DNA of 59,965 nt from Prevotella sp. Its GTDB lineage: Bacteria; Bacteroidota; Bacteroidia; Bacteroidales; Bacteroidaceae. The translations under genes and the position numbers were made by a program. Location: NCBI GenBank assembly GCA_017443345.1, contig JAFSNR010000111.1, positions 1 through 59,965 on the forward strand. Direction: 5' to 3'. The notes beneath the pieces are model-generated. The model made no database searches, was not told where the DNA came from, and saw nothing but the letters and a program-made list of their open reading frames with translations. This document shows positions 17,721 through 32,209 of the stretch, one piece after another; positions within the stretch are counted from its first letter, which is position 1; each line of letters opens with the position of its first letter.

Positions 17721-19754
17721 ATGAAACGAATTATTACAATGATGGCAATGGCATCAATTTCTATGATGACAATGGCTCAGGAACCACTTCGTTCAGGTCT
17801 GGATCAGACAGACTTCGACATGAGTGTTCGTCCTGCTGATGATTTCTACGGCTATGCATGTGGTGGTTGGATGAAGAAGAATCCTCTGCCTGCTGCTTAT
17901 TCCCGTTATGGCAGTTTTGATCAGCTGCAAGAGAACAATGACAAGCGTATCAACGGTATCCTTGCAGAATTGCAGGCCAATACCTATGAAGTGGGTACGA
18001 TTGAGCAGAAACTCAGTGACCTCTATAAGTTGGCAATGGACTCTGTTCGTCGTAATCAGGAGGGCGTCAGTCCTGTGATGCCTCTGATTAAGAAGCTTGA
18101 GGCTGCCAAGACTAAGCAACAGCTTCTCAACATTCTGTTAGAGCGGGCTCCCTATAGTGGCAGTCAGTTCTATTATGCTGGTTTGGGGGCTGACGACAAG
18201 AACGCCACGCAGAACATCCTGAACATTTATCAAGGTGGACTATCGTTGGGCCAAAAGGAGTATTACCTCGATAACGATAAGGCTACGGCGAATATTCGCG
18301 AAGCCTTTAAGAAACACATAGTCAACATGTTCCAGCTTTTTGGCTTCAGTAAAAGTGTAGCCACCAAGAAGATGCAGAACATCATGAAGATGGAAACTGC
18401 ACTTGCCAAGGTCAGCAAGTCGCGTACAGAGCTTCGTGACCCAGAGGCCAACTATAACAAGATGACGCTTCAGGAGTTCGAGACAAAGTATCCAAATCTG
18501 CCTCTGGAGAAACTGATGAATGCCAAGGGTATCGATAGTAAGTATATTCAGGAGATGATTGTCGGACAGCCTGATTTTATGGCAGGTGCCAATGCTTTGG
18601 CAGGTTCGATGAAGCCTGCAGAATATCGTGACGTGATGGAGTGGGATGTTATCTCTTCAGCTGCTAATCTCCTGAGTGACGATGTGATTGCTGAGAGTTT
18701 TGATTTCAATGGACGTATCCGTTCAGGTCGAAAGGAGAATCATCCGCTTTGGAAGCGCAGTACCAGTCAGGTTGAGGGTGTGATGGGTGAGGCTCTTGGC
18801 AAGATTTATGCTGAGAAGTATTTCCCAGAGTCATCCAAGCAGCGTATGGCTGTGTTGGTTAAGAATCTGCAGATTGCCCTTGGTGAGCGTATTGCTGCTC
18901 AGGACTGGATGGATGATTCAACTAAGGTAAACGCTCTGTTGAAGCTGAATACGTTCTACGTAAAGATCGGCTATCCTGACAGATGGACTGATATCTCGGC
19001 TCTTCAGATTGACCCTAAAAAATCTTACTATGAGAATATGGAGGAATGCCATAAATTCTGGAATGCTTGGAATATCGAGCATCGTGCAGGCAAGCCCGTT
19101 GATCGTGATGATTGGCACATGACTCCTCAGACGGTGAATGCCTATTATAATCCGACAACCAACGAAATCTGCTTCCCTGCTGGCATTCTCCAGTATCCGT
19201 TCTTTGAGCCAACTGCAGATGATGCCTTTAACTATGGTGCCATCGGAGTGGTTATCGGCCATGAGATGACACATGGATTTGATGATCAAGGCCGTCGTTT
19301 CGATAAAGATGGAAATATGCATGACTGGTGGAAAGAGGCAGATGGAAAGAACTTTACAGAGAGAACGGACAAGTATGCCGATTTCTTCTCTGCGATTAGT
19401 GTGCTTCCTGATTTGAAGGCTAATGGCCGTTTGACGCTTGGTGAGAATCTGGCAGATCATGGAGGTCTGCAGGTGGCTTTTGCTGCTTACAAGAATGCGA
19501 CTAAGCGTAATCCATTAGGTGAGAAAGACGGACTGACTGCAGATCAGCGTTTCTTCCATGCCTATGCAGGTGTATGGGCCAATAATATTACCGAAGAAGA
19601 GATTCGCAATCGTACGAAGAGCGACCCTCACTCATTAGGCCGTTGGCGTGTTAATGGAGCTCTTCCCCATATTGATGCGTGGTATGAAGCATTTGGTGTG
19701 AAAGAAGGCGACAAGATGTTTATTCCGCAGTCAGAACGCTTGCAATTGTGGTAA
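17721..19754 (+). CDS. M13 family (PepO/neprilysin-like) metallopeptidase
   Basis: A 677-residue exported zinc endopeptidase. A signal peptide covers about the first 19 residues (MTMA/QEP). The zinc site is H514-E-M-T-H518 in VVIGHEMTHGFDDQG, with Glu575 in GENLADHGG as third ligand; upstream NAYYNPTTNEICFPAGILQ is the family substrate-binding strand, and the end of the chain has the conserved HSLGRWRVNGAL. Such enzymes cut peptides, usually below about 40 residues, in the cell envelope. It lies 15 bases after the ABC-F gene and is followed by a strong terminator. Confidence 0.95.
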   Translation: MKRIITMMAMASISMMTMAQEPLRSGLDQTDFDMSVRPADDFYGYACGGWMKKNPLPAAYSRYGSFDQLQENNDKRINGILAELQANTYEVGTIEQKLSDLYKLAMDSVRRNQEGVSPVMPLIKKLEAAKTKQQLLNILLERAPYSGSQFYYAGLGADDKNATQNILNIYQGGLSLGQKEYYLDNDKATANIREAFKKHIVNMFQLFGFSKSVATKKMQNIMKMETALAKVSKSRTELRDPEANYNKMTLQEFETKYPNLPLEKLMNAKGIDSKYIQEMIVGQPDFMAGANALAGSMKPAEYRDVMEWDVISSAANLLSDDVIAESFDFNGRIRSGRKENHPLWKRSTSQVEGVMGEALGKIYAEKYFPESSKQRMAVLVKNLQIALGERIAAQDWMDDSTKVNALLKLNTFYVKIGYPDRWTDISALQIDPKKSYYENMEECHKFWNAWNIEHRAGKPVDRDDWHMTPQTVNAYYNPTTNEICFPAGILQYPFFEPTADDAFNYGAIGVVIGHEMTHGFDDQGRRFDKDGNMHDWWKEADGKNFTERTDKYADFFSAISVLPDLKANGRLTLGENLADHGGLQVAFAAYKNATKRNPLGEKDGLTADQRFFHAYAGVWANNITEEEIRNRTKSDPHSLGRWRVNGALPHIDAWYEAFGVKEGDKMFIPQSERLQLW

Positions 19755-19779
19755 TTTAACCATAAATTAGAAGAATTTG

Positions 19780-19812
19780 CCGTCGTAAATATAAATTTAC
19801 GGCGGTTTTTTT
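19780..19812 (+). terminator. Terminator after the M13 peptidase
   Basis: CCGTCGTAAAT pairs with ATTTACGGCGG around a short AT loop, followed by eight T. It separates the M13 gene from the kinase/AAA/FHA operon. Confidence 0.9.
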
Positions 19813-19841
19813 TGTCCATTAAGTTTTTTTTTGTAATTTTG
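19811..19841 (+). promoter_or_regulatory. Promoter of the kinase-AAA-FHA-PP2C operon
   Basis: TTTG at 19811-19814 and TAATTTTG at 19834-19841 are 19 bases apart. The next good start, ATG 19871, lies 30 bases on. No other promoter-like site was seen at the gene junctions of the operon. Confidence 0.6.
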
Positions 19842-19870
19842 CACCTAACTTAAGTTATTTGCTTGTTTTT

Positions 19871-20809
19871 ATGAATGATGATATTACTCTGAATCCAGAA
19901 CGTACGAACAGCAGCTCTCGTCAGTTGCAACGTGATGAGCTGACTCGTGAGAGGACTGTTGATACGCAGACACAACAGGCGATGCAAATGCATTCGGCAC
20001 AGGGTATTCAGTGTCCCCATTGTGGTACGATAAATGAGCCTGAGGCCATGTTCTGTGCATCTTGTGGTAGTCCTATTGGTATGGCAACCTGCCCCAATTG
20101 TGGTGCTGACATAGAACCTGATGCAGATTTCTGTGAAACCTGTCGCCATTACATACGCAAGGATGTATGCTCCTTCTGTGGCTCTCAACTGACGGGCCAT
20201 GAGGCTTTCTGTCCTGAGTGTGGAAGTCCGCGAGGTGGAATTGTTTGTCCTGTCTGCCGTACGTTGAATGACTTCTCTTTCTGCAAGCAGTGTGGCACTC
20301 CTCTGACAGATGAAGCACGTCAGCTGATGGAGCGTGTCAGAGAGACTCCTGAGTTCAAGGAGATGCAGCGTCTGGCCAGTGAGATACAGAAACTGGAGAT
20401 GACGATTCCCTATAGCTCTGAGCGTGAGGTTCTTCGTGATCAGAAAAACATCAAGCTTCGCGAGCGGGTTTTGACGCTCCTTGCGCAGGATCGTGGCATA
20501 GCTCACCCCGTCATCCCTGAATCCACCAACAAGCGTCTGAGCAAGGAAGAATATGATGCCAAGAAACAGGAGCGTCTGAACAGACTCACGGAGATATTGG
20601 AGCAGATGGCTCAGCAACCTCAACCCAAACCGGCTCAGGTGCGTAATTACGCGATGGCCTGCAAACCTTCGGGTGTCAGACTTGCGTGGGAATGTAATTT
20701 CAAGCACGCCCTTCATTCAAGTCCCTGTGGATGCGCCAAGCCCCAGATGGGAGGAAAATGGATTATACTTGGTAAGAATTCGAAAAAGGAAATTAAAGAC
20801 GATATTTAA
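19871..20809 (+). CDS. Multi-zinc-ribbon protein, first gene of the phospho-signalling operon
   Basis: A 312-residue soluble protein. After a Ser/Thr-rich N-terminus it has a run of CxxC pairs from about residue 47 to 145, including CPHCG, CASCG, CPNCG, CETC, CSFCG, CPECG, CPVC and CKQCG, forming around four zinc ribbons. A charged, probably coiled-coil region follows, then a C-terminal segment with WECNF and further Cys and His. No enzyme motif is visible; such ribbons usually act as protein- or nucleic-acid-binding adaptors. The start was set at 19871, not the upstream TTG at 19859. The kinase ATG follows its stop directly. Function unknown; a scaffold for the kinase module is inference. 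Confidence 0.85.
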   Translation: MNDDITLNPERTNSSSRQLQRDELTRERTVDTQTQQAMQMHSAQGIQCPHCGTINEPEAMFCASCGSPIGMATCPNCGADIEPDADFCETCRHYIRKDVCSFCGSQLTGHEAFCPECGSPRGGIVCPVCRTLNDFSFCKQCGTPLTDEARQLMERVRETPEFKEMQRLASEIQKLEMTIPYSSEREVLRDQKNIKLRERVLTLLAQDRGIAHPVIPESTNKRLSKEEYDAKKQERLNRLTEILEQMAQQPQPKPAQVRNYAMACKPSGVRLAWECNFKHALHSSPCGCAKPQMGGKWIILGKNSKKEIKDDI

Positions 20810-23800
20810 ATGAGCACGGAAAGAACCTTCGATAATGGAAATACAACCAATGGCGATTCAACCATCCGTCCTTCCGGACTTGATGGCACCATTCGCCCTG
20901 CAGAACTCGACGGGACCATACGACCAGCCGAATTAGATGGGACCATCCGTCCTTCGACCATGGATGGTACTATCCGTCCTGCAACTCTGGATGGTACGAT
21001 CCGTCCTGCTGAGATGCCTGTTGCTTCAGATATGGGTGGTACGGTCAGGGCTGATGGAATGACATCACAGCATGAGACGGCGTATGGTGACGATTTCATC
21101 CTCAAAGGCGTCAATTATCATAAGATTCAGTGCTTGAGCGACAATTCTGGTGAGGCTCAGGTCTTTCTGGTGGAGCGTGATCATGAAGAATACGTCTTGA
21201 AGATTTACTATCCAAGTTTTGACGTCAATAAGAAAATTCTTCAGACTGTTCTGAACTTTGATTTTGAGATGATTGTCCATGTGTTTGACTATGGCAAGAC
21301 CTATGTCGATGGCAAGCATCGTTATTATGAACTCATGGAGTATCTTCGTGGAGGATCAATGGCAGAATACAAGTTGAATGGCGATCTTGACAAGTTCCGT
21401 CGTATTGCCTTGCAAGGTGCTGCAGCACTGGCTTACTGCCATGAGTGTAACATTCTTCACAAAGATGTCAAACCAAGCAATTTCTTTTTCCGTGACAAGG
21501 AACACACAGAACTGGTTCTTGGTGACTTCGGAATCTCAAGTATCCTGGAGCAGGACGGTAAGTCGCATAAGACGACACAGGCTCGTACCCCTATTTATGC
21601 CGCTCCAGAGATGTATTCAGATGTGATTGACGGAGTTGTGGAGGTTTCGCCTTCTGCCGATTTCTATTCTTTGGGTATGTGTCTGATGGCGCTTTGGTTG
21701 GGTGAGAACCCGATGAGTTCGAATGAGCGCATTATGATGCGTCAGAAAAACGAAGGTCGTATTCCACATATTAAAGAACTGCCTGATCGTGTCCGCATGA
21801 TTGTACAAGGACTTACGGTGGTTAATCCTCTGAATCGTTGGGGATATGAAGAAGTAGAACAGTGGTTTGAAGGCGGAAGTCCGAAGGTGGACCTCTCTTC
21901 ACCATTTCTTAAATATAAGAGCTTTATTGTCGATCCAGACAGAAATCTGGTTGCTGATAACATCCACGAACTCGTTCCCTTGCTTCTTGATAATGAGAAG
22001 GTGGCCATTGGTTATCTGTATAATGGCAAGATCAGCTCATGGTTGGAGTCGTGTGGCAATGAGAAACTCAGTACGATTGTGAAGGATATCGTAGTGAACC
22101 GTTATCCTGTAGACCAGAAGGCTGGACTGTTGGCATCAGTTTACGTCATGGAGCCCACCTACCCTTATAAAGATGTCAAGGGAAATCTCTGTGACGATAT
22201 TCACAGTATGGCCATCTCGCTTTTGAGCTACCAGAGTGACTACGGATTATTGTTGACGAATCCCAATGATTCGCTATTCCTCTATCTGGAATCACATACG
22301 AAGTGCGATGTTGATCGTCTGCGTTCATATTTCACTCACACGACGAATAAGGATGAGCTCCGAATCGCCATTATGCGCTTGGTCTTTGAGATTGATCCAG
22401 AGATACCTCTGCTGGCCAAATATCCATCTTCCGATTTGAAGGATATCGTTAAGACTTTCGGCAGGGAAGCATTGACTGAGGATGACTGGCATAGTCTGAC
22501 AGACGGCCGTCTGCTTTCATGGATGTACAGTCATGAGGACCGTATGGCCTGTGAAAGTCTCCGTATCATGACGAAGGATCAGCCTTACTCTTCGACTTTG
22601 GCTTATAAGGTGCTGTACAATCTTGATCGTGAGGCTGCTTATGATCTGAGGAGTGCTTTCACACCGATGCAGGTAGGCGAAAAACTCTGTGAACGTTTGA
22701 AAAATGCTGAGCATCTGGGCGAGAAGGAGTTTGCAGACGAGATGGAAGATATCGTAGCACTAGAAGGAAGGTTCACCTATTATGCCCAACTTCATGGTTG
22801 GACTGAGTTGTTTGGTGAGCATACCCGCTGCTTTGATTTCAAGAGTGAAGAGAATCGGGAGCGTTTAGGTGCTTATGATGTGAAGACTGCCGTCTATCGT
22901 TTCTGTAGGATTCTGGGAGTTACTCCTGTATATCTGATGCCTGACGGAACAGAGATGACAGACGGAAAGAGTATCGATGCAAGAAACTATTCACAACTTC
23001 GTGGTGAAATCAGAAACGGTTCATTCTCCCAGTGGATGTCTGTATTCTATCATGAAGATCCCTTTGCGGATTTCTCTGAAGAATATGCCTATGAGCATGC
23101 TTTGGAGGAGTGGCTGATGGCACTTGGACAGATTGATGCTACCCAGCGTTACTATAAGCGTTTTGTTGATGCCCGTGAGGAAACGTCAGCAAGAATCAAG
23201 GAAGTACGTAGTAATTGGCAACGTGCGAGGGCAAAGGAAAAGATGTGGCGTATGATATTCTATGGACTTTGCGGCATCTGGCTTTTGCTGGTGTTGATCA
23301 TTGGTGTTAAAGACCGCACGTTCCTGTTAGGACATACCTTCCTGTCTATTGGTTTGCCTTTAGGAGGTATGACTGCCATCATCGTTGGCACCAGAGCTTT
23401 CTTCCGTGGCTATGATTTTATGTTCTCTTGCCTGTGGGGATTGTTAGGAGCTCTATCCTCCTTTATACCTATTATAATATTAAAGTATATGGGACAGTCT
23501 CATCCCTCGCTCTTTAATATTACTATTGTTGTCATCTCATTGGTTTACATGTTAATATGTCATCTGACAGATTTCCGTGGTGACCAGAAGGCTGACAGTA
23601 AACTGATTTCTGAAGTTCTTCAGAATGATATCAAGTCAACATTGCTTGAACCGTTGTATTACACGTTCAAGACAAAGTCATACAGATTTAAGGGCTCGAA
23701 GTTCGGTTTGTTGAATGATGTGACGGATCAAGTTCGCTCCATCAGTGGCGAGAGTGTGCTGCACTATATCCTCTGGAGTGTACTGGTGCTGGTCTTTGTC

Positions 23801-23914
23801 CTCGATTTCATCATTTTCAGTCCGAGTCTTCTTAACGTCAGCAATCCTGATGTTAATCACATGAAGGCCAGCCCCTCTGCAATAATTAAGCAATTAGAAC
23901 GAGACGTAGAATAA
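20810..23914 (+). CDS. Membrane Ser/Thr protein kinase with N-terminal TIRP repeats
   Basis: A 1034-residue Hanks-type kinase. Residues 18-71 hold six 9-residue repeats of the form TIRPxxxDG, with a seventh related TVRA near 78. The kinase domain (about 95-340) has Lys131 in VLKIYY, the catalytic loop H217-K-D-V-K-P-S-N224, D239-F-G241 and A265-P-E267. A long middle region of unknown fold follows, then about five membrane segments between residues 814 and 1005, so the kinase should face the cytoplasm. The repeats look like multi-copy phospho-acceptor sites for the FHA protein encoded downstream (inference). Its stop codon overlaps the AAA gene start (TAATG). Confidence 0.92.
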   Translation: MSTERTFDNGNTTNGDSTIRPSGLDGTIRPAELDGTIRPAELDGTIRPSTMDGTIRPATLDGTIRPAEMPVASDMGGTVRADGMTSQHETAYGDDFILKGVNYHKIQCLSDNSGEAQVFLVERDHEEYVLKIYYPSFDVNKKILQTVLNFDFEMIVHVFDYGKTYVDGKHRYYELMEYLRGGSMAEYKLNGDLDKFRRIALQGAAALAYCHECNILHKDVKPSNFFFRDKEHTELVLGDFGISSILEQDGKSHKTTQARTPIYAAPEMYSDVIDGVVEVSPSADFYSLGMCLMALWLGENPMSSNERIMMRQKNEGRIPHIKELPDRVRMIVQGLTVVNPLNRWGYEEVEQWFEGGSPKVDLSSPFLKYKSFIVDPDRNLVADNIHELVPLLLDNEKVAIGYLYNGKISSWLESCGNEKLSTIVKDIVVNRYPVDQKAGLLASVYVMEPTYPYKDVKGNLCDDIHSMAISLLSYQSDYGLLLTNPNDSLFLYLESHTKCDVDRLRSYFTHTTNKDELRIAIMRLVFEIDPEIPLLAKYPSSDLKDIVKTFGREALTEDDWHSLTDGRLLSWMYSHEDRMACESLRIMTKDQPYSSTLAYKVLYNLDREAAYDLRSAFTPMQVGEKLCERLKNAEHLGEKEFADEMEDIVALEGRFTYYAQLHGWTELFGEHTRCFDFKSEENRERLGAYDVKTAVYRFCRILGVTPVYLMPDGTEMTDGKSIDARNYSQLRGEIRNGSFSQWMSVFYHEDPFADFSEEYAYEHALEEWLMALGQIDATQRYYKRFVDAREETSARIKEVRSNWQRARAKEKMWRMIFYGLCGIWLLLVLIIGVKDRTFLLGHTFLSIGLPLGGMTAIIVGTRAFFRGYDFMFSCLWGLLGALSSFIPIIILKYMGQSHPSLFNITIVVISLVYMLICHLTDFRGDQKADSKLISEVLQNDIKSTLLEPLYYTFKTKSYRFKGSKFGLLNDVTDQVRSISGESVLHYILWSVLVLVFVLDFIIFSPSLLNVSNPDVNHMKASPSAIIKQLERDVE
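20861..21022 (+). repeat. Six 27-base coding repeats (TIRP motif)
   Basis: Codons for TIRPxxxDG recur with an exact 27-base period, with Thr at residues 18, 27, 36, 45, 54 and 63. Silent differences between copies show that the protein motif, more than the DNA, has been kept. Confidence 0.9.
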
Positions 23915-26900
23915 TGGTTTGCGAGAAATGTCATAAGGAAAACAGAAGCATTGCTAAGTTCTGCAAGTGGTGTGGTCAGCCGCTTGTAAGTCAGGATCTG
24001 CTCGATAAGTTGGTAGGTCTTGATGAAGTTAAGCAGCAGTTAAAGACCATTGTTGATACCTATACATATCTTCGTTCTCGTAAGGACATTGCTAATGTCC
24101 GTATATCTGTCAACGCCATTGTGATAGGAGAGACTGGAACAGGAAAGACTGCTCTTGCTGAGATTCTGCGCGATTACTTCTATCAGCACAAGATCATCGA
24201 AAAGCCAAAGTTGACGATGGTAGATGCTGTAGACTACCAGCGCTTTGTTGACAAATGGGATGACAATATCAAGAAAGCCAAGAATGGTATTCTCTTTTTC
24301 GATAATGTCCAAAAGCTCCTACCCGATAAATATTCTAATCAGGTTAATCCGCTTGACAAGCTCTTTGTGGAGATGGATAAATGGGAGGATAATCCTATTG
24401 TTATTATCTCTGGCTTGACCAAGGGCTTGGAGGACTTCCTGGAGAGTAATCCTGCCGTAGCTAATCGTTTCAAGTATACATTCCGTATGACTACACCTGG
24501 TTATCAGGAGTTGACGGATATATGTAAACTGAACCTACGTATCAAGTATGGTATTACTGAGTTCTCAGAAGAGGCAGATAGTCAGTTGTCGCGTTTCTTC
24601 AAATATCAGGTGAAGATTAAGGATGAGACATTTGGAAACGGACATCTGGCCACAAAGACTGCAGAAGATATCTTCACACAGTTCATCAGCCGTGGTGCTG
24701 ATGCCAAGCAGGTAGAGAAGTCGGATATCAAGGGTTATGTACCAGAAGAACGTTCCGTAGAAGATATCCTGAAAGACCTTGATACCTTCATTGGTATGGA
24801 TGAGGTAAAGGCGGCTGTGAAGGAAATGGCCTATTCTGTTCAGAATGCCATGCAGCGTGCTGAGCGCGGACTGGGTGAGCAAGAGAAGATGTCGATGCAT
24901 ATTATCCTGACGGGTAATCCAGGAACGGGTAAGACAACGATAGCCCGCAAGCTTGGCGAAATACTTGCCTCTATAGGTTATCTTGACAGTGGCCATGTTG
25001 TGGAAGTGGACCGAGCCAAGATGGTCAGTCCTTATCAGGGTGAAACGCCAAAGGTCGTAGATCGCTTATGTGATAAGGCCAAAGGTGGTATCCTCTTTGT
25101 CGATGAGGCTTATACTTTGGCTCCGCTTAGTGCCTCTGGTGATCGTGACAATCAAGGAGCTCAGGCTCTGGAGAAGCTGATGAAACGCATGGAGGACGAT
25201 CGTGGTCAGTTCATTGTGATTGCGGCAGGCTATCGTACTGAGATGGAGAACCTGTTCCGTGTGAATCCAGGTTTCCGCAGCCGCTTCAACTATTTCCTCG
25301 ATATTAAGGATTACTCGCCCGAGCAGTTGTTCGAGATCATGCTTGTCTTTGCTAAGGGCAAGAAATATATCTTCTCGCCAGAAGCAGAGGAATTGACGAA
25401 GAAGATGGTTACGGAGATGTACAACTCTCGTGACAAGGACTTTGCCAATGGTCGTACGATGCGTACGCTCTTTGACCAGATCTGTAAGAAACAGGCGCAG
25501 CGTCTGCAAGGAGTGGATATTTCCTCGATGAGCAACGAAGAGCTGATGACTATCAGACAAGAGGATGTTCCTTACGAGGCTCCAAAGTCAGTCAATGTTG
25601 GCGACTGTCTGAAGAAGTTGGACGGTCTTGTTGGATTGGGAGGTGTCAAGAAGGAAATTTCGAACCTGACAGCATTCCTCAATCTGCAGATCAGACGTGG
25701 CGAGACCAATACATTCCAGGGCAAGCACTATGTGTTTACAGGAAATCCAGGTACAGGAAAGACGACTGTGGCACGTATTATGGCAGATATCTTCAAGACT
25801 TTGGGTGTTGTGGCTCGTGGTCAGTTGGTAGAGGCCGATCGTGCTAAACTTGTGGCAGGCTATTCTGGTCAGACAGCTATCAAGACCAATCAGCTTGTAG
25901 ATCAGGCTCTTGGTGGTGTGCTCTTTATTGATGAGGCCTATACTCTGAAATCAAGTGATGGTGATACCTTTGGTGCAGAGGCTATCGATACGTTGTTGAA
26001 ACGTCTTGAGGATGACAGAGGTAAATTTATATGTATTGTGGCAGGCTATACTGACCAGATGCATGACTTCATTGACACCAATCCAGGCTTGAAGAGTAGG
26101 TTTACTCAGACTATCCATTTTGACGACTATACACCAGATGAGCTGACAGAGATATTCCTCCATCTTGCTGAGGGTAAGAATTTCACGATTGATGAGGATA
26201 CCCGTGCCGCTATCCATAGACAGTTTGAACAACTGTATCTGCGTCGGGATAAGAACTTTGGTAATGCTCGTGAGGCTCGTCGTATTTTTAATGAGGCTGT
26301 GGAACGTCAGAGTCAGCGTCTTGTGAAGTTGATGGGTGATCCAGGCTTCAAGGAAAGCGACATGTATAGTCTGACAAAAGAAGACTTGCCGATGGCTCAG
26401 AGTGAGGCAGCTCGTCCGTTGGATGAGGTTCTTAATGAACTTGACGAATTTATCGGCATGCGTGGTGTCAAGAATTCCATCCGTCGACTGGCCGTACAGA
26501 GCATGTTTATGAAACAGCGTGCCGCAATGGGTGCAGGAAAGGTTCAGCAGATGTCGATGAACTTTATTCTGACAGGTAATCCTGGAACGGGAAAGACATC
26601 TATTGCCCGTAAGATGGGTGAGATTCTCCAGTCAATGGATATTCTGCCCACTTCACGTGTCATTGAAGCAAGTCGTGCCACTTTAGTTGGTAAGTATATG
26701 GGAGAGACCCCCAAGATTGTCAATAATATGTGTGACAAAGCTATGGGTGGTATTCTTTTCATAGATGAAGCTTATACGCTCAGTGATGGTGGCGACCAGT
26801 ATGGTAAGGAAGCTATTGATACTCTCATGAAGCGCATGGAGGATGATCGTGGTAAGTTCGTTGTCATTGCAGCAGGTTATAAGGACAAGATGGATGAATT

Positions 26901-27219
26901 CCTGCAGATGAATGCAGGACTCGCCAGTCGATTTACTCATAAACTGCATATTGAGGACTACAATGAAGATGAGCTCCTTGCCATCTTCAAGCATATGGCT
27001 CAGAAAGAGCAATACACCTTATCGGCCGCAGCTGAGTTCAAGGCACTTGATACGATCTATAAGATGGTGCTTGCCAAGAACGAGTCGTGGGGTAATGCCC
27101 GTGAAATGCGTAATCTGCTTGATGTCACCATACAGAAACTCTCGGAACGTGTATCAAAGATGCCGCCAGAACAAGTGACTAAGGAAACATATCAGATAAT
27201 ATTACCAGAAGATTTATAA
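23914..27219 (+). CDS. Zinc-ribbon protein with four CbbX/CfqX-like AAA+ modules
   Basis: A 1101-residue ATPase. An N-terminal zinc ribbon (Cys3, Cys6, Cys17, Cys20) precedes four AAA+ modules. Walker A motifs begin near residues 72 (GETGTGKT), 334, 610 and 888 (all GNPGTGKT). Modules 2-4 have the CbbX-type Walker B ILFVDEAYTL or a close variant, and pore-like segments such as PYQGETPK. Module 1 reads ILFFDNVQK, lacking the catalytic Glu, so it probably binds but does not hydrolyse ATP well. CbbX-type ATPases remodel protein complexes, and EccA of type VII secretion is related. In this operon it is the likely effector or remodeller under kinase/phosphatase control (inference). Confidence 0.92.
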   Translation: MVCEKCHKENRSIAKFCKWCGQPLVSQDLLDKLVGLDEVKQQLKTIVDTYTYLRSRKDIANVRISVNAIVIGETGTGKTALAEILRDYFYQHKIIEKPKLTMVDAVDYQRFVDKWDDNIKKAKNGILFFDNVQKLLPDKYSNQVNPLDKLFVEMDKWEDNPIVIISGLTKGLEDFLESNPAVANRFKYTFRMTTPGYQELTDICKLNLRIKYGITEFSEEADSQLSRFFKYQVKIKDETFGNGHLATKTAEDIFTQFISRGADAKQVEKSDIKGYVPEERSVEDILKDLDTFIGMDEVKAAVKEMAYSVQNAMQRAERGLGEQEKMSMHIILTGNPGTGKTTIARKLGEILASIGYLDSGHVVEVDRAKMVSPYQGETPKVVDRLCDKAKGGILFVDEAYTLAPLSASGDRDNQGAQALEKLMKRMEDDRGQFIVIAAGYRTEMENLFRVNPGFRSRFNYFLDIKDYSPEQLFEIMLVFAKGKKYIFSPEAEELTKKMVTEMYNSRDKDFANGRTMRTLFDQICKKQAQRLQGVDISSMSNEELMTIRQEDVPYEAPKSVNVGDCLKKLDGLVGLGGVKKEISNLTAFLNLQIRRGETNTFQGKHYVFTGNPGTGKTTVARIMADIFKTLGVVARGQLVEADRAKLVAGYSGQTAIKTNQLVDQALGGVLFIDEAYTLKSSDGDTFGAEAIDTLLKRLEDDRGKFICIVAGYTDQMHDFIDTNPGLKSRFTQTIHFDDYTPDELTEIFLHLAEGKNFTIDEDTRAAIHRQFEQLYLRRDKNFGNAREARRIFNEAVERQSQRLVKLMGDPGFKESDMYSLTKEDLPMAQSEAARPLDEVLNELDEFIGMRGVKNSIRRLAVQSMFMKQRAAMGAGKVQQMSMNFILTGNPGTGKTSIARKMGEILQSMDILPTSRVIEASRATLVGKYMGETPKIVNNMCDKAMGGILFIDEAYTLSDGGDQYGKEAIDTLMKRMEDDRGKFVVIAAGYKDKMDEFLQMNAGLASRFTHKLHIEDYNEDELLAIFKHMAQKEQYTLSAAAEFKALDTIYKMVLAKNESWGNAREMRNLLDVTIQKLSERVSKMPPEQVTKETYQIILPEDL

Positions 27220-27222
27220 AAG

Positions 27223-27780
27223 ATGATTATTTGTCCAGCTTGTAAAGAAGAGATAGAAGACGACTCCCATTATTGTGATCAATGTGGACAGGCTTTGTTG
27301 TTCTGCAATCAGTGCGGTCGTGTCGGACTAGGACGACGCTGTACTCATTGTGGTGGACTGATGGTTTCTCCTGGCGATCGACAGGCAAATCAGCAAAACG
27401 AATCTCCCAGCGTTGCAGCCTTCTCTTCAAATATATCTACGGGAATGGGTATTTCCCACACAGGTCAGCCCCGCAGCGGTATGCCAGTACTGACGTTAGC
27501 CAACGATAGTCTGAATATCCGTATTGTAGCTATGAATGGTGCCATTATCGGACGTCGAAAGGGACCATATACCCAATTCTTTGAGCAGCAGGCTTATGTT
27601 TCAGGTGTTCATGCCCAGTTAAAATACAAACCGAACTCAGGATGGTGTGTGACAGATAAGCATTCTTCGAATGGAACGAAAGTAAATCAGCGAGCTATAC
27701 AGCCAGATGTTGATATGACATTGAACAACGGTGACATCCTCACCATTGCAAATGTGAATCTGCAAGTAATAATTAGATAA
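27223..27780 (+). CDS. Double zinc-ribbon FHA-domain protein
   Basis: A 185-residue soluble protein. The first 45 residues carry Cys4, 7, 18, 21, 28, 31, 40 and 43, a double zinc ribbon. After a Ser/Gln-rich linker, an FHA domain occupies about residues 88-183, with the phospho-threonine pocket residues in place: G110-R111-R112, S127 and H130 in YVSGVHAQL, and N150-G-T in HSSNGTKVN. FHA domains bind phospho-threonine peptides, so this is the reader of the module; the TIRP repeats of the upstream kinase are the obvious candidate ligand. It lies three bases after the AAA gene and four before the PP2C gene. Confidence 0.93.
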   Translation: MIICPACKEEIEDDSHYCDQCGQALLFCNQCGRVGLGRRCTHCGGLMVSPGDRQANQQNESPSVAAFSSNISTGMGISHTGQPRSGMPVLTLANDSLNIRIVAMNGAIIGRRKGPYTQFFEQQAYVSGVHAQLKYKPNSGWCVTDKHSSNGTKVNQRAIQPDVDMTLNNGDILTIANVNLQVIIR

Positions 27781-27784
27781 TAGA

Positions 27785-28528
27785 ATGATCAGTTTACATA
27801 TAACCGCAGCTAGTAGAACTGGCTGTGTGAGACATCAGAATGAAGACATGATACTTGTGGGGAATCATTTCATTCGGAATGACGAATTTCAAGCACATGT
27901 AGAATTAACGAAAAGCGACCGACTCCTTATTGCTGTTGCTGATGGTATGGGAGGTCATAATCGTGGAGATATTGCCAGTAGTGACACTCTGAACAATTTG
28001 CACTTTTTTTTCCATGATCTTCCAACTGGTCTGGAACCTGGTGGTTTTAATGAAATGATTGTTGATTGGCTTGAGTCCATTAATAATTTTATTGCTTCGA
28101 AGGGACGTGCTGATGAGCAATTTAAGGGAATGGGCACAACATTAGTTGCTCTAGCCTACTATGAAGGGGAGTTTTATTCGATGAATTGTGGCGACAGTCG
28201 CCTTTATCGATTACGTGAAGGCCATCTGGAGCAATTGACTACAGATCATTCACTCAGCAACCTGTTGGGAACAGAGAAACGTACCAGTGTCATTACGAAT
28301 TGTATTGGTGGTGGTTGTACATCGTCGTACATTGATATAGTGAAAATGACAACCGATATTATGTTGGGAGATTGCTATTTGTTATGTAGTGACGGTCTTT
28401 CTGATATGCTGAAAGATGAGAATATTTCTGCCATTTTGTCGGAGGGAGGCGAGGCCAATGAATTGTGTGAAGCAGCTATTGCCCATGGAGGTCTCGATAA
28501 TGTATCCTGTTGTGTTATTAAGATTTAG
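27785..28528 (+). CDS. PP2C-type Ser/Thr protein phosphatase
   Basis: A 247-residue cytoplasmic PPM phosphatase. Motifs in order are RTGCVRHQNED (metal-binding Asp21), VADGMGGHNRGD (Asp53), MNCGDSRLYR, LLCSDGLSDML and GGLDNVSC. Length matches bacterial PppA/PrpC/PstP catalytic domains without membrane anchor. As last gene of the five-gene module it is the natural eraser for the kinase encoded upstream. metA follows eight bases later and may be read through from this operon, since no terminator is visible between them. Confidence 0.95.
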   Translation: MISLHITAASRTGCVRHQNEDMILVGNHFIRNDEFQAHVELTKSDRLLIAVADGMGGHNRGDIASSDTLNNLHFFFHDLPTGLEPGGFNEMIVDWLESINNFIASKGRADEQFKGMGTTLVALAYYEGEFYSMNCGDSRLYRLREGHLEQLTTDHSLSNLLGTEKRTSVITNCIGGGCTSSYIDIVKMTTDIMLGDCYLLCSDGLSDMLKDENISAILSEGGEANELCEAAIAHGGLDNVSCCVIKI

Positions 28529-28536
28529 TTTCAACA

Positions 28537-29454
28537 ATGCCACTTAGATTACCGGATAGACTTCCTGCCATAGATATTCTGAAGAATGAGAATATCTTTG
28601 TAATGGATAACTCGAGGGCGACGACGCAGGATATACGTCCTTTGCGTATCGTCATTCTCAATTTGATGCCTCTGAAGATAACAACAGAGACAGACTTGAT
28701 TCGTCTGTTGTCCAATACACCGCTTCAGTTGGAAATCAGTTTTATGAAGTTGAAGAGTCATACTCCCAAGAATACCCCGATAGAGCACATGATGATGTTT
28801 TATCGCGATTTTGAAATGATGCGTCAGGAGAAGTATGACGGTATGATTATTACTGGTGCTCCAGTTGAGACGTTGGAGTTTGAGGACGTGACCTATTGGG
28901 ATGAGATAACGGAAATATTTGATTGGGCTCGCACCCATGTCACGAGTACCTTGTATATCTGTTGGGCAGCTCAAGCAGGTCTGTATTATCATTATGGTAT
29001 TCCTAAATATCCCTTAGTGAAAAAGATGTTTGGTATCTTCCCTCAGGTACCCATAGAGACACCTCTTCCAATCTTCCGTGGATTTGATGATGTATTTATG
29101 ATGCCTCATAGTCGTCATACCGAGGTTCATCGTGAAGATATCCTGGCCAACCCCGATCTGAAGCTGATTGCAGAGTCTCCAGATTGTGGGGTCAGTATGG
29201 TAATGGCTAGAAACGGACGTGAATTCTATATTACAGGGCATCTTGAATATGCACCTAATACGCTGGACAATGAGTATAAGCGTGATCGAGGTGTTCGTGA
29301 TGATGTTGATTTGCCAAAGAATTACTATCGTGACGATAATCCAGAAAACCCGCCCGTAGTTTCCTGGCGTGCTCATGCCAACCTGCTCTATGCCAACTGG
29401 ATTAACTATTACGTTTATCAGGAGACTCCGTATAACATTGACGAAATACGATAG
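28537..29454 (+). CDS. metA: Homoserine O-acetyltransferase (MetA type)
   Basis: A 305-residue member of the MetA family that activates the hydroxyl of homoserine in methionine synthesis. The nucleophile is Cys142 in YICWAAQAGLYYHYG. Residue 111 in TGAPVETLEFEDV is Glu, which in studied MetA proteins goes with acetyl-CoA use, while Gly at this place goes with succinyl-CoA; this one is therefore predicted to acetylate. The motif reads CWAAQA where CWGAQA is usual. No SAM riboswitch is visible ahead of it, and it seems to share the transcript of the PP2C gene. Confidence 0.95.
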   Translation: MPLRLPDRLPAIDILKNENIFVMDNSRATTQDIRPLRIVILNLMPLKITTETDLIRLLSNTPLQLEISFMKLKSHTPKNTPIEHMMMFYRDFEMMRQEKYDGMIITGAPVETLEFEDVTYWDEITEIFDWARTHVTSTLYICWAAQAGLYYHYGIPKYPLVKKMFGIFPQVPIETPLPIFRGFDDVFMMPHSRHTEVHREDILANPDLKLIAESPDCGVSMVMARNGREFYITGHLEYAPNTLDNEYKRDRGVRDDVDLPKNYYRDDNPENPPVVSWRAHANLLYANWINYYVYQETPYNIDEIR

Positions 29455-29460
29455 GCGACA

Positions 29461-31263
29461 TTGAGAGCACTCGAACTTTTAGCTCCGGCAAAAAACTTAG
29501 CATGCGGCATAGCGGCCATTGACCACGGTGCCGATGCTGTGTATATTGGGGCACCTAGCTTTGGGGCACGTGCTGCAGCAGGGAATAGTATCGATGACAT
29601 CCATAGTCTCTGTAACTATGCCCATCAGTTCGGAGCAAAGGTATATGTCACTTTGAACACGATTATTTACGATGATGAACTAGAGCAACTCCAACAGTTG
29701 GTTCTTTCATTAACAGATGTTGGGGTAGATGCCATTTTGGTACAGGATATGTCGTTATTGGAACTCTGTCCGTCAACGTTGCCTCTTCATGCATCAACCC
29801 AGACTGACAATCGTACAGCGGAGAAAGTAAGATGGTTGCAGGATGTTGGTTTTTCTCGTGCCGTCCTTGCCCGTGAATTATCTGTTGATGAAATTGCAGC
29901 CATCCATCAGGAAGTGCCAGAAATGGAACTTGAAGTATTTGTACATGGTGCTCTTTGTGTCAGTTATTCTGGTATCTGTTATGCTTCTCAATATTGTTTC
30001 CGACGTAGTGCGAATAGGGGAGAGTGTGCCCAGTTCTGTCGCATGAAGTTCTCTTTATTTGATGCTAACGGGATGGAAATCGAACACGAACGATATCTGC
30101 TTTCTTTGAAAGATATGAACCAAAGCGAGAATCTGTTGGAGCTTATAGAGGCAGGAGCAAGTTCGTTTAAGATTGAAGGACGTCTGAAGGATGTGCCATA
30201 TGTCAAGAATGTGACAGCAGCCTACAGTGAAAAACTCAATGAGATTGTACGTCGCTATCCAGACAAATACTGTAGAGCATCCTTCGGACAATGTGTATAC
30301 AGTTTCAAGCCTGATTTGAGGCGAACCTTCAATCGTGGCTATACCTCTTACTTTGCTCACGGACGACAATCGGATATAGCATCATTTGATACGCCAAAGG
30401 CTATCGGAGAGTTTGTCGGAACAGTGAAGGAGATACGACATGACTCTTTCAATGTGGCTGGCGTATCCAGTTTTACCAATGGTGACGGACTTTGTTTCCT
30501 GAATGCAGACCGCCAGTTTGAGGGACTTCGTGCCAATCGTGTCGTGGGAAATCGTATTTATCCTTATAGGATGCCCAAGGGATTGCGTCCAGGAATGTCT
30601 TTGTTCCGAAATAACGACCAAGAGTTCGAAAGGATCCTTTCCAAGCCAAGTGCTCAACGCAAGATTCCTGTATCAATGTCACTTCGTGCTACAGAAGATG
30701 GTTTTTCACTTTATGCTACTATTCACCATCAGACCTGTAGTGTGAAGATCTCGCAAGAGCATCAGATAGCTCAGAAATCTCCTCGTGAGAATATCATTCG
30801 TCAACTGACAAAGCTTGGAGATACCATATATACCTGTTCAGAAGTAGAGATTCCTTCAGATTTCAACTTCTTTATCCCTAACAGCGTACTGTCTGAGATG
30901 AGGAGACTACTTGTAGATCAACTTTGTCAACTGAAACTGACACATGATTCCGGATCCATTCCTTTGAGGGGCCGTAACGAGATTTCGTCCCCTGACGATC
31001 CTTATCCTTATCTTTATAATATATCAAACCATCTTTCTCAGAAGTTCTACAATGCGGAAGGATTGACAGCTTATGAGTTGAATGGTGGGGATGGTCCTTT
31101 GATGCAGTGTCGTCATTGTATCCGTTATAGCCTGGGCTATTGTGTTCGCAGGGGTGGTAAACATCCAGAATGGAAGGAACCACTTTATTTGCAGTTGGGT
31201 GACGGACGTCGATTCCAATTAGAGTTTGATTGTAAGAACTGTCAGATGAATGTCTATGCGTAA
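29461..31263 (+). CDS. U32 family protein (RlhA/YegQ-like)
   Basis: A 600-residue protein with a TTG start at 29461, fitting the family opening RALELLAPAKNLACGIAAIDHGADAVYIGA. The U32 signature is present around residues 158-180 (VFVHGALCVSYSGICYAS), followed by a Cys cluster (CFRRSANRGECAQFC) and a second Cys-rich segment at the C-terminus (CRHCIRYSLGYC, CKNCQ). Members once called collagenases include RlhA, which hydroxylates C2501 of 23S rRNA, and other iron-sulphur-linked hydroxylases; the Cys clusters fit an Fe-S role better than protease activity. Its 3' end overlaps the next gene by 14 bases. Confidence 0.88.
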   Translation: MRALELLAPAKNLACGIAAIDHGADAVYIGAPSFGARAAAGNSIDDIHSLCNYAHQFGAKVYVTLNTIIYDDELEQLQQLVLSLTDVGVDAILVQDMSLLELCPSTLPLHASTQTDNRTAEKVRWLQDVGFSRAVLARELSVDEIAAIHQEVPEMELEVFVHGALCVSYSGICYASQYCFRRSANRGECAQFCRMKFSLFDANGMEIEHERYLLSLKDMNQSENLLELIEAGASSFKIEGRLKDVPYVKNVTAAYSEKLNEIVRRYPDKYCRASFGQCVYSFKPDLRRTFNRGYTSYFAHGRQSDIASFDTPKAIGEFVGTVKEIRHDSFNVAGVSSFTNGDGLCFLNADRQFEGLRANRVVGNRIYPYRMPKGLRPGMSLFRNNDQEFERILSKPSAQRKIPVSMSLRATEDGFSLYATIHHQTCSVKISQEHQIAQKSPRENIIRQLTKLGDTIYTCSEVEIPSDFNFFIPNSVLSEMRRLLVDQLCQLKLTHDSGSIPLRGRNEISSPDDPYPYLYNISNHLSQKFYNAEGLTAYELNGGDGPLMQCRHCIRYSLGYCVRRGGKHPEWKEPLYLQLGDGRRFQLEFDCKNCQMNVYA

Positions 31264-32209
31264 ACTGTCTGTTTCTTTCCTGATATGTTTCCTGTCGATG
31301 ATGCTGGCAGGTTGCTATAATCGTGGCCCGATTACGCCAGACGCATGGGATTTGACTGCACAGCAGTTAGATTCTATCTCTTTCTATACGACTCATCACT
31401 ATACTCAGAACTATAATTTTGTTGTTACTGGTGACTCGTTGGTTGTTGTTGCTCAGCAGCCAGAAGATATGGCCATTCCTGACGTGGTTTCTTCCGAGAT
31501 AGAAACAGTAGGTGTGGAAATGCAGAAAGACTCCATCACACTTAGGAAGAATGAGCATATTGTTGTAGCTGATATCAAGACCGTTCCTGCTGACACGATA
31601 GATTCTGTATGGGTAAAGGTTGCACGTGACCAACTGACATTTGGTTGGATTCATGAGAATGAGCTGTTGGCAAAGGTTTCTCCTGATGACCCCATCAGTC
31701 AGTTTATTGATTTCTTCTCTGATGCCCACATGCTGATTTTCTTGGCATTTTGTGTAGTAGTTGTTGCTGCCTATGGTGTTCGCAGATTGATGAAAAGAGG
31801 AGCAAAGATTGTACATTTCAATGATATCCCCTCGTTCTATCCTACCACATTGTGTCTTCTGATAGCATCCTCCGCTGTGCTATATAGCTCAATTCAGTTG
31901 TTTGGTCCCGAGTCGTGGCGACATTTCTATTATCATCCTTCTTTGAACCCATTCGCGTTGCCTCTCCATTTAGGTTTGTTTGTATCTTCTGTATGGGCTA
32001 TTGTCATTGTGGCCATAGCTACGGTTGATGATGTAACGAAGAAGCTACCTTTAGGTGCTGCTGTCCTGTATCTGAGTGGGCTGACTGCAGTCTGTGCTGT
32101 ATGCTATGTAGTTTTCAGTATTACGACCTTATATTATATAGGCTATCCTTTGCTGATTGCCTATTATGTCTTTGCTATCAAGCGCCTTTTACGTTTGCCT
32201 TCTCTTTAA
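31250..32209 (+). CDS. Lipoprotein-signal membrane protein of unknown function
   Basis: A 319-residue protein, or 317 from the second ATG at 31256. It starts with a lipoprotein-type signal ending in LAGC (Cys22), followed by about 140 residues that may form a small beta domain (SH3-like spacing around WVKVARDQLTFGWIHENEL) outside the cytoplasm. Five hydrophobic segments then span the membrane: one near 161-176, a pair around 197-250, and two more near the C-terminus. No family was recognised. It overlaps the U32 gene by 14 bases and converges on hemW with a 4-base overlap. Confidence 0.75.
   Translation: MSMRKLSVSFLICFLSMMLAGCYNRGPITPDAWDLTAQQLDSISFYTTHHYTQNYNFVVTGDSLVVVAQQPEDMAIPDVVSSEIETVGVEMQKDSITLRKNEHIVVADIKTVPADTIDSVWVKVARDQLTFGWIHENELLAKVSPDDPISQFIDFFSDAHMLIFLAFCVVVVAAYGVRRLMKRGAKIVHFNDIPSFYPTTLCLLIASSAVLYSSIQLFGPESWRHFYYHPSLNPFALPLHLGLFVSSVWAIVIVAIATVDDVTKKLPLGAAVLYLSGLTAVCAVCYVVFSITTLYYIGYPLLIAYYVFAIKRLLRLPSL

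Follow-up and report, generated by a model that had tools for sequence, protein, structure and literature searches.

A kinase, FHA, PP2C and AAA+ operon of Prevotella as a candidate phosphothreonine signalling module

Five adjacent genes of Prevotella sp., a gut bacterium, at positions 19871 to 28528 of contig JAFSNR010000111.1 (assembly GCA_017443345.1), encode a zinc-ribbon protein, a membrane Ser/Thr kinase, an AAA+ protein, an FHA protein and a PP2C phosphatase; the whole stretch of 59,965 nucleotides that was analysed is called the window. We hold it on balance probable that this operon is a writer-reader-eraser module, in which a kinase tail carrying multiple phosphothreonines would recruit the FHA protein and, by inference, an AAA+ remodeller. 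A first-pass annotation, made from the letters of the DNA, had proposed phospho-signalling for these genes. The row of threonine motifs in the kinase tail, which it did not mention, strengthens this reading, as does the conservation of the catalytic and phosphate-site residues.

Threonine motifs, presumed reader and eraser

19871..20809, forward strand: gene 1, zinc-ribbon protein, 312 amino acids (open reading frame (ORF) list; Pfam DZR, 3e-20)
20810..23914, forward strand: gene 2, membrane Ser/Thr kinase, 1034 amino acids (Pfam Pkinase, 5e-28)
20855..21016, forward strand: six 9-residue repeats D-G/S-T-I-R-P-x-x-x in the N-terminal tail of the kinase, followed by a seventh motif, GTVRA
23914..27219, forward strand: gene 3, AAA+ protein, 1101 amino acids (Pfam AAA, 9e-62, in four stretches)
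27223..27780, forward strand: gene 4, double zinc ribbon with FHA domain, 185 amino acids (Pfam FHA, 3e-13; DZR, 5e-7)
27544-27747, forward strand: FHA domain of gene 4, the presumed phosphothreonine reader
27785..28528, forward strand: gene 5, PP2C phosphatase, 247 amino acids (Pfam PP2C_2, 8e-11)

The five ORFs are intact, and their junctions measure, in order, 0 bases, a 1-base overlap, 3 and 4 bases; the start of gene 1 was taken as the ATG at 19871, the start in the ORF list being the upstream TTG at 19859. Regarding the identities of the proteins, including the four AAA+ modules of the 1101-residue protein, and the gaps of at most four bases, the ORF list and the Pfam domains agree with what had been read from the letters.

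The N-terminal tail of the kinase, a predicted disordered and flexible region, is rich in Thr, Pro, Ala, Asp and Ser and nearly free of Trp, Cys, Tyr and Phe. Across 84 such tails, 226 copies of the motif T[IVLM]R were counted, compared to 8.5 +/- 2.9 in 500 shuffles, with at least one copy in 78/84 tails and at least two in 68/84. Its density reaches 34 per 1000 amino acids in the tails, compared to 0.14 elsewhere in the kinase and 0.3 to 1.0 in the products of genes 1, 3 and 5, and position -2 is occupied by Asp or Glu at 186 of the 312 TxR sites. The loci behind these counts are related and not independent, yet the lineages use different repeat units, such as DGTIRPAEL in the window, DKTLKPD in L121, SGTQRP in L143, DDDKTIRP in L146 and DKTIVA in L089 (L numbers denote loci). 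The set of 84 omits L043, L079, L091 and L103, whose kinases are truncated or broken, and L058, L064 and L120, which are intact, and is also without L220 and L221.

Comparing the six repeats of the window at the codon level, the T-I-R-P codons differ 0, 0 and 32 times at positions 1, 2 and 3, all silently, and the corresponding differences over all nine codons are 32, 16 and 87. Since the differences over T-I-R-P fall only on third positions, it is the amino acids, and not the DNA repeat, that appear to be under selection, and the motif array of the window appears to be kept by it. A degenerate D-x-T-[IVL]-R-P pattern has 23 matches in the own genome compared to 14 for the reversed control; six of them are this tail, two of the other 17 lie in frames of over 600 amino acids, and no tandem array of the pattern was found elsewhere in this genome.

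The enzymatic and binding sites expected of a phosphothreonine system are well preserved. The catalytic Lys, the HxD motif, the Asp of DFG and the Glu of APE are invariant in 84/84 kinase sequences, and the G, R, S, H, N and G residues of the FHA phosphate site are invariant in 88/88 FHA proteins. Depending on the position, 81 to 87 of 87 PP2C phosphatases have the metal-site aspartate, and those without it show an alignment gap. The kinase, the phosphate site of the FHA domain and the metal site of PP2C are thus all intact, as in a general phosphothreonine/FHA module.

The FHA protein itself carries a related signal in part of the relatives. Six of 90 FHA proteins (L146, L147, L148, L150, L220 and L221) end exactly in TxR[VIL]-COOH; they are all six from families f135, f153 and f177, and none of the other 84 ends in this way. 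As this C-terminus has the same motif as the kinase tail, self-binding or head-to-tail assembly is suggested in these six relatives from another class, whose FHA proteins could bind themselves head to tail. In the excerpts of PMC6733907, the FHA domain of DgcB and OdhI binds a threonine of a flexible tail with an acidic residue at -2. The operon resembles GarA, OdhI and DgcB in that its FHA domain may bind such a threonine, and in the six distant FHA proteins that end in a motif of this kind; unlike in those systems, the candidate ligand array of the window lies in the kinase and not in the FHA protein.

Gene order, neighbourhood and inheritance

The operon was followed in close loci, namely the best 80 of 231 stretches confirmed by an AAA+ scan of species-level genome contigs, which are labelled Prevotella, Prevotellaceae or Xylanibacter and include the isolates P. 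ruminicola KHT3 and X. ruminicola D31d. All five genes were found by tblastn in one order and strand in 77/80, and the remaining three contigs (L043, L079 and L091) start inside the kinase. L091, a short contig of a metagenome-assembled genome, is also without PP2C between FHA and metA. The kinase frame is open over 900 amino acids in 76/80 loci, the exceptions being the three cut loci and L103, with a broken frame.

Outside the genus, carriers were found with a profile of the kinase C-terminal region (A1), and the five genes with profiles built from the close loci plus L121. Eight of 11 distant loci (L121, L143, L146, L147, L148, L150, L220 and L221), representing five other families of the phylum Bacteroidota, have all five genes in the same order and strand. 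The other three are limited by their contigs and agree as far as they go: L122 shows the end of gene 1, the kinase, one extra ORF and the AAA gene; L144, gene 1, the kinase and the AAA gene; and L149, gene 1 and the kinase. A further candidate, L145, was dropped, as its match had an E-value of 7.9e-4 and none of the five genes was present. The first-pass annotation had proposed gene order across relatives as a check and named scattered genes as an outcome that would speak against its reading; order and strand are instead kept in both the close and the distant loci.

Extra ORFs stand inside the gene set in L146, L121 (a short AAA), L122 and L221; that of L146 (5289-6080) is a SUKH (SMI1/KNR4) gene between gene 1 and the kinase. 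L147 and L148 look Ignavibacteria-like, judging from one sorting-signal-like sequence of L148 and from kinship. An unannotated family with YGIxWRSPxxMNP near its C-terminus lies beside the operon in Bacteroidales relatives (L121, 2805-3935 and 15087-15893; L143, 14971-15870); its upstream member in L121 is a weak match, and a DUF1963 gene accompanies it there.

Within the genus the operon has a fixed site. In the window, metA (28537) begins 8 bases past the PP2C gene and a U32 peptidase gene comes next; both stand behind PP2C in 78/78 close loci that reach 1 kb further. Of the 75 loci that have more than 2.5 kb of upstream sequence, 67 carry an M13 peptidase gene on this side; it was not detected in L060, L061, L063, L065, L088, L098, L099 and L105. 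None of M13, metA and U32 was found around the 11 distant loci (0/11).

This constant metA neighbour bears on a different explanation, that of a metabolic switch similar to GarA and OdhI, where FHA would inhibit enzymes, the kinase tail would only sequester FHA, and the AAA+ protein would repair enzymes like a Rubisco activase. Actinobacterial FHA proteins with self-ligand threonines do inhibit enzymes, and the AAA modules are CbbX-like. However, metA does not accompany the operon outside the genus, and an enzyme gene common to the lineages was not seen in the neighbourhoods listed, so that we consider this explanation quite unlikely.

Regarding transcription, a Bacteroides-type promoter pattern precedes the operon:

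19811..19841, forward strand: TTTG-N19-TAATTTTG, by pattern match, 29 bases 5' of the first ATG

The pattern has 6 matches in the window compared to 0.94 expected, a number reached by 0/100 shuffles, and a strong terminator-like hairpin (19779-19806) lies ahead of the operon, 3' of the upstream M13 peptidase gene. As for the absence of an internal terminator, described in the first-pass annotation, all terminator-like matches within the operon, on either strand, sit inside coding sequence, and the region 19600-31300 has 13 such matches compared to 8.4 +/- 3.4 in shuffles. As metA follows so closely, with U32 after it, the operon transcript may continue into both. The five genes range from 0.41 to 0.50 in G+C content, on either side of the window mean (0.463), so that no sign of an island is seen in base composition.

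The divergence of the operon genes tracks that of the M13 gene, as seen by pairwise Spearman correlations over 60 loci (kinase 0.74, gene 1 0.73, AAA 0.70, PP2C 0.60), which points to mostly vertical inheritance; the kinase correlates with metA at 0.56 and metA with M13 at 0.44 (0/500 permutations each). In a metA-locus survey, taking the best 30 loci of matches in 55/60 genomes and thus biased to near kin, 16 (the window included) have PP2C upstream, 8 have M13 directly upstream and 6 have neither within 1.5 kb. Of nine larger stretches, partly drawn from the same genomes, two hold the operon and two show neither arrangement, and in the other five M13 and metA are separated by 123-262 bases with no ORF between them. 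The operon therefore appears to be mostly vertically inherited and gained or lost whole.

Other regions of the kinase, the AAA+ protein and gene 1

21914..22333, forward strand: first unit of the middle region of the kinase (residues 369-508), with a second copy in five relatives
23252..23821, forward strand: residues 815-1004 of the kinase, a hydrophobic membrane region from hydropathy
23995..24723, forward strand (approximate limits): AAA module 1, with Walker A GETGTGKT and Walker B FFDN, without the catalytic Glu

The kinase has a middle region that matches no Pfam family at E 0.001, the first unit of which has a second copy in L146, L147, L148, L149 and L150 (E 3e-9 to 3e-25). In L221 (7329-10216) the kinase frame comprises 549 amino acids only and is followed by a separate ORF of 418 amino acids, which looks like a split-off middle region. 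As for the membrane part, the kinase had been described as a five-helix protein; membrane helices are indeed predicted, and the number five is plausible but not certain, as hydropathy at a strict cut-off gives four helices for the window kinase and, among 12 kinases scanned, five in 5/12 with a range of 2 to 6 (in two of the kinases with six, the count includes a stray segment outside the membrane region). Past the last helix the C-termini differ between relatives, that of L143 bearing an SH3_3 domain (E 5e-11), and since the kinase is anchored by its C-terminal helices, these additions probably lie outside the cytoplasm. Among solved structures, the C-terminal region has only a weak match to an optineurin segment (E 0.003).

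The AAA+ protein has a CxxC...CxxC zinc-ribbon-like N-terminal start, read from sequence and not among the best 25 of 67 Pfam matches, followed by four CbbX/SpoVK-like modules, with a weaker similarity to ClpA/ClpB. The Walker B motif of module 1 ends in DN in 87/88 proteins and in EN in 1/88, the catalytic Glu never being present; modules 2 and 3 end in DE in 88/88, and module 4 in 87/88, with one not read by the pattern. Module 1 is thus probably ATP-binding but non-hydrolysing, the three other modules being active, and three of the 88 proteins have a fifth module. Other CbbX-like AAA proteins are encoded in the own genome at L214 3227-10821 (C77) and L215 4949-7399 (C196), one pair of them close to a protein that contains a TIR-like stretch (DVFISYASEDF); as copies of the operon, the other AAA loci examined in this genome were rejected.

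These features are also those of a narrower form of the writer-reader-eraser reading, in which the module serves envelope or membrane-protein quality control, with the kinase sensing the envelope and the AAA+ protein extracting or unfolding membrane clients. This is the leading guess for the client, as the kinase is a membrane protein whose C-terminal parts vary, and the SH3_3 domain of one relative, the CbbX/SpoVK-like modules and the ClpA/ClpB similarity fit it as well. Nevertheless, no client, protease or envelope gene was seen tied to the unit across lineages and the topology comes from hydropathy only, and we regard this narrower form as rather doubtful.

The zinc-ribbon protein of gene 1 has several CxxC ribbons, a helical-looking middle and a C-terminal segment W-x-C...H...C...GG-x-W. 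At approximately 20687-20761 this segment forms a compact W-x-C-N...H...C...P...GG-x-W pattern that is invariant across an alignment of 61 sequences and recognisable by eye in the distant proteins, and it has no Pfam match. Compared to solved structures, gene 1 shows a short zinc-ribbon match (E 4e-5), other matches being above E 0.1. An N-terminal DITxNP motif, present in 35/87 gene 1 proteins, was considered as a further FHA ligand.

Known systems and the proposed mechanism

The trio of PpkA kinase, Fha and PppA phosphatase belongs to the type VI secretion system (T6SS), and in Acidovorax PpkA condensates recruit Fha, according to the excerpts of PMC12607579. The operon shares with it a membrane Ser/Thr kinase, an FHA reader and a PP2C eraser together, and could for this reason be a stray control layer of a T6SS or type VII machine that was lost or is located elsewhere. 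The AAA+ protein, moreover, exceeds the NCBIfam thresholds for EccA, SpoVK and CbbX, with which it shares an AAA module with AAA_lid_6, albeit by summing four stretches; for EccA the sum is 698.6 (cut-off 466.65) and the best stretch covers profile positions 273-551 of 557, that is, the C-terminal ATPase part only, leaving the N-terminal part unmatched. Unlike EccA, SpoVK and CbbX, it has four or five tandem modules, a zinc-ribbon start and a module 1 without the catalytic Glu, and unlike the PpkA-Fha1-PppA trio, the operon has a four-module AAA+ protein, a zinc-ribbon protein and a threonine array in the kinase. The T6SS sheath family PF05943 was found in 0/13 carrier genomes (1/14 controls positive, E. 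coli), and the WXG100 family PF06013, the partner expected of EccA systems, in 0/13 (2/14 controls positive, B. subtilis and T. maritima, one of them over the cut-off). Several carrier genomes are drafts, the own genome being 92% complete, so this absence is strong but not absolute. It extends to the carriers what had been noticed for the DNA itself, where no secretion component is seen, and makes a secretion origin very improbable.

The operon has several points of contact with defence or conflict systems such as TerY-P and MADS, and a module of this kind, with the AAA+ protein or an unseen partner as effector, is an unlikely alternative. The best PADLOC match of the kinase domain is mad6 (1e-32), and the AAA matches include TRIP13 and IetA. 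TerY-P couples a kinase with PP2C and requires a vWA protein, as described in the excerpts of PMC11090510, and shares with the operon the zinc ribbons and the operonic arrangement; those of PMC7159879 concern kinase-PP2C-vWA neighbourhoods, not the gene set of the operon. Single relatives have a SUKH gene (L146) or a DUF1963 gene (L121). Both families are often found near polymorphic toxins.

Against the defence explanation, the kinase scores 73.8 bits with MADS6, far under the family cut-off of 460, and the match of the AAA+ protein to mad8 is weak (3e-15); the defence-library and NCBIfam matches were set aside as family identities, being at the domain level only. No vWA, nuclease or methyltransferase domain is among the Pfam matches listed for the five proteins (for the AAA+ protein, the best 25 of 67), in agreement with the earlier remark that no nuclease is visible and unlike MADS, and TerY is likewise missing from these matches. 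In contrast to TerY-P, FHA is present, and the kinase is a membrane protein ending in helices, without a C-terminal zinc ribbon. Furthermore, the operon occupies its genus site beside housekeeping genes with largely vertical inheritance, and the kinase C-terminal region has 0 matches in 72,556 plasmid and 50,697 phage records. The first-pass annotation had named as a possible refutation that the cluster is already described within a known secretion or defence system; no such description was found in the open-licence PubMed Central (PMC) papers searched.

As for the writer-reader-eraser module, the five genes would form one self-contained unit at the inner membrane. The C-terminal additions of the kinase would sense the envelope, and the active kinase would phosphorylate itself on the threonine motifs lined up in the disordered N-terminal tail, and the FHA protein would bind the resulting phosphothreonines. 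With several sites per tail, several FHA molecules could gather, and these may form a graded or switch-like cluster. The zinc-ribbon protein and the AAA+ protein would be recruited to this FHA cluster, possibly by way of their zinc ribbons; there the AAA+ protein would remodel a client, with PP2C erasing the phosphothreonine marks. Tail phosphorylation, FHA binding, clustering and the recruitment and control of the AAA+ protein are all proposed from sequence. In its strongest form, the kinase would write a multi-site phosphothreonine code on its own repeat tail, gather an FHA cluster and load the four- or five-module AAA+ remodeller, PP2C then resetting the system; this form is possible and is put forward tentatively.

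Several points weigh against the module. We infer the link between the AAA+ protein and phosphorylation only from operon membership and shared zinc ribbons. The distribution is patchy: the A1 profile matches 7/393 order genomes (the own and the spurious L145 included) and 7/395 phylum genomes (the own included). These two samples overlap with each other and with that of the second class (7/294), and both contain the own genome as well as one more of its genus. Among 35 other genomes of the genus, 11 have a kinase match that extends past the catalytic domain. Regarding the ligand, the TxR form is absent or altered in L122, L144, L221 and L151, the last of the same genus, 6/84 tails have no T[IVLM]R, and the window FHA protein, like 84/90 overall, lacks the self-motif. 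Arg at +2 and Pro or Ala at +3 match no citable FHA preference; only the acidic -2 residue agrees with the DgcB and OdhI ligands, as given in the excerpts of PMC6733907.

Taken with these points, the operon would belong to phosphothreonine/FHA signalling, and there is a real chance of novelty in the way its AAA+ protein is loaded. If this reading is true, the operon would be a widely conserved phosphothreonine/FHA module that stands alone, without a T6SS, and has an unusual physical basis, as the repeat sequence of the tail changes between lineages and the threonine motif is mostly kept. The lineage-specific repeats allow the comparison of ligand and reader across species. The module may also couple protein phosphorylation directly to an AAA+ motor, and may give multi-module CbbX-like ATPases a role. 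The strong multivalent version, if true, would be an undescribed signalling machine, the bacterial counterpart of receptors whose phospho-tails attract multivalent readers.

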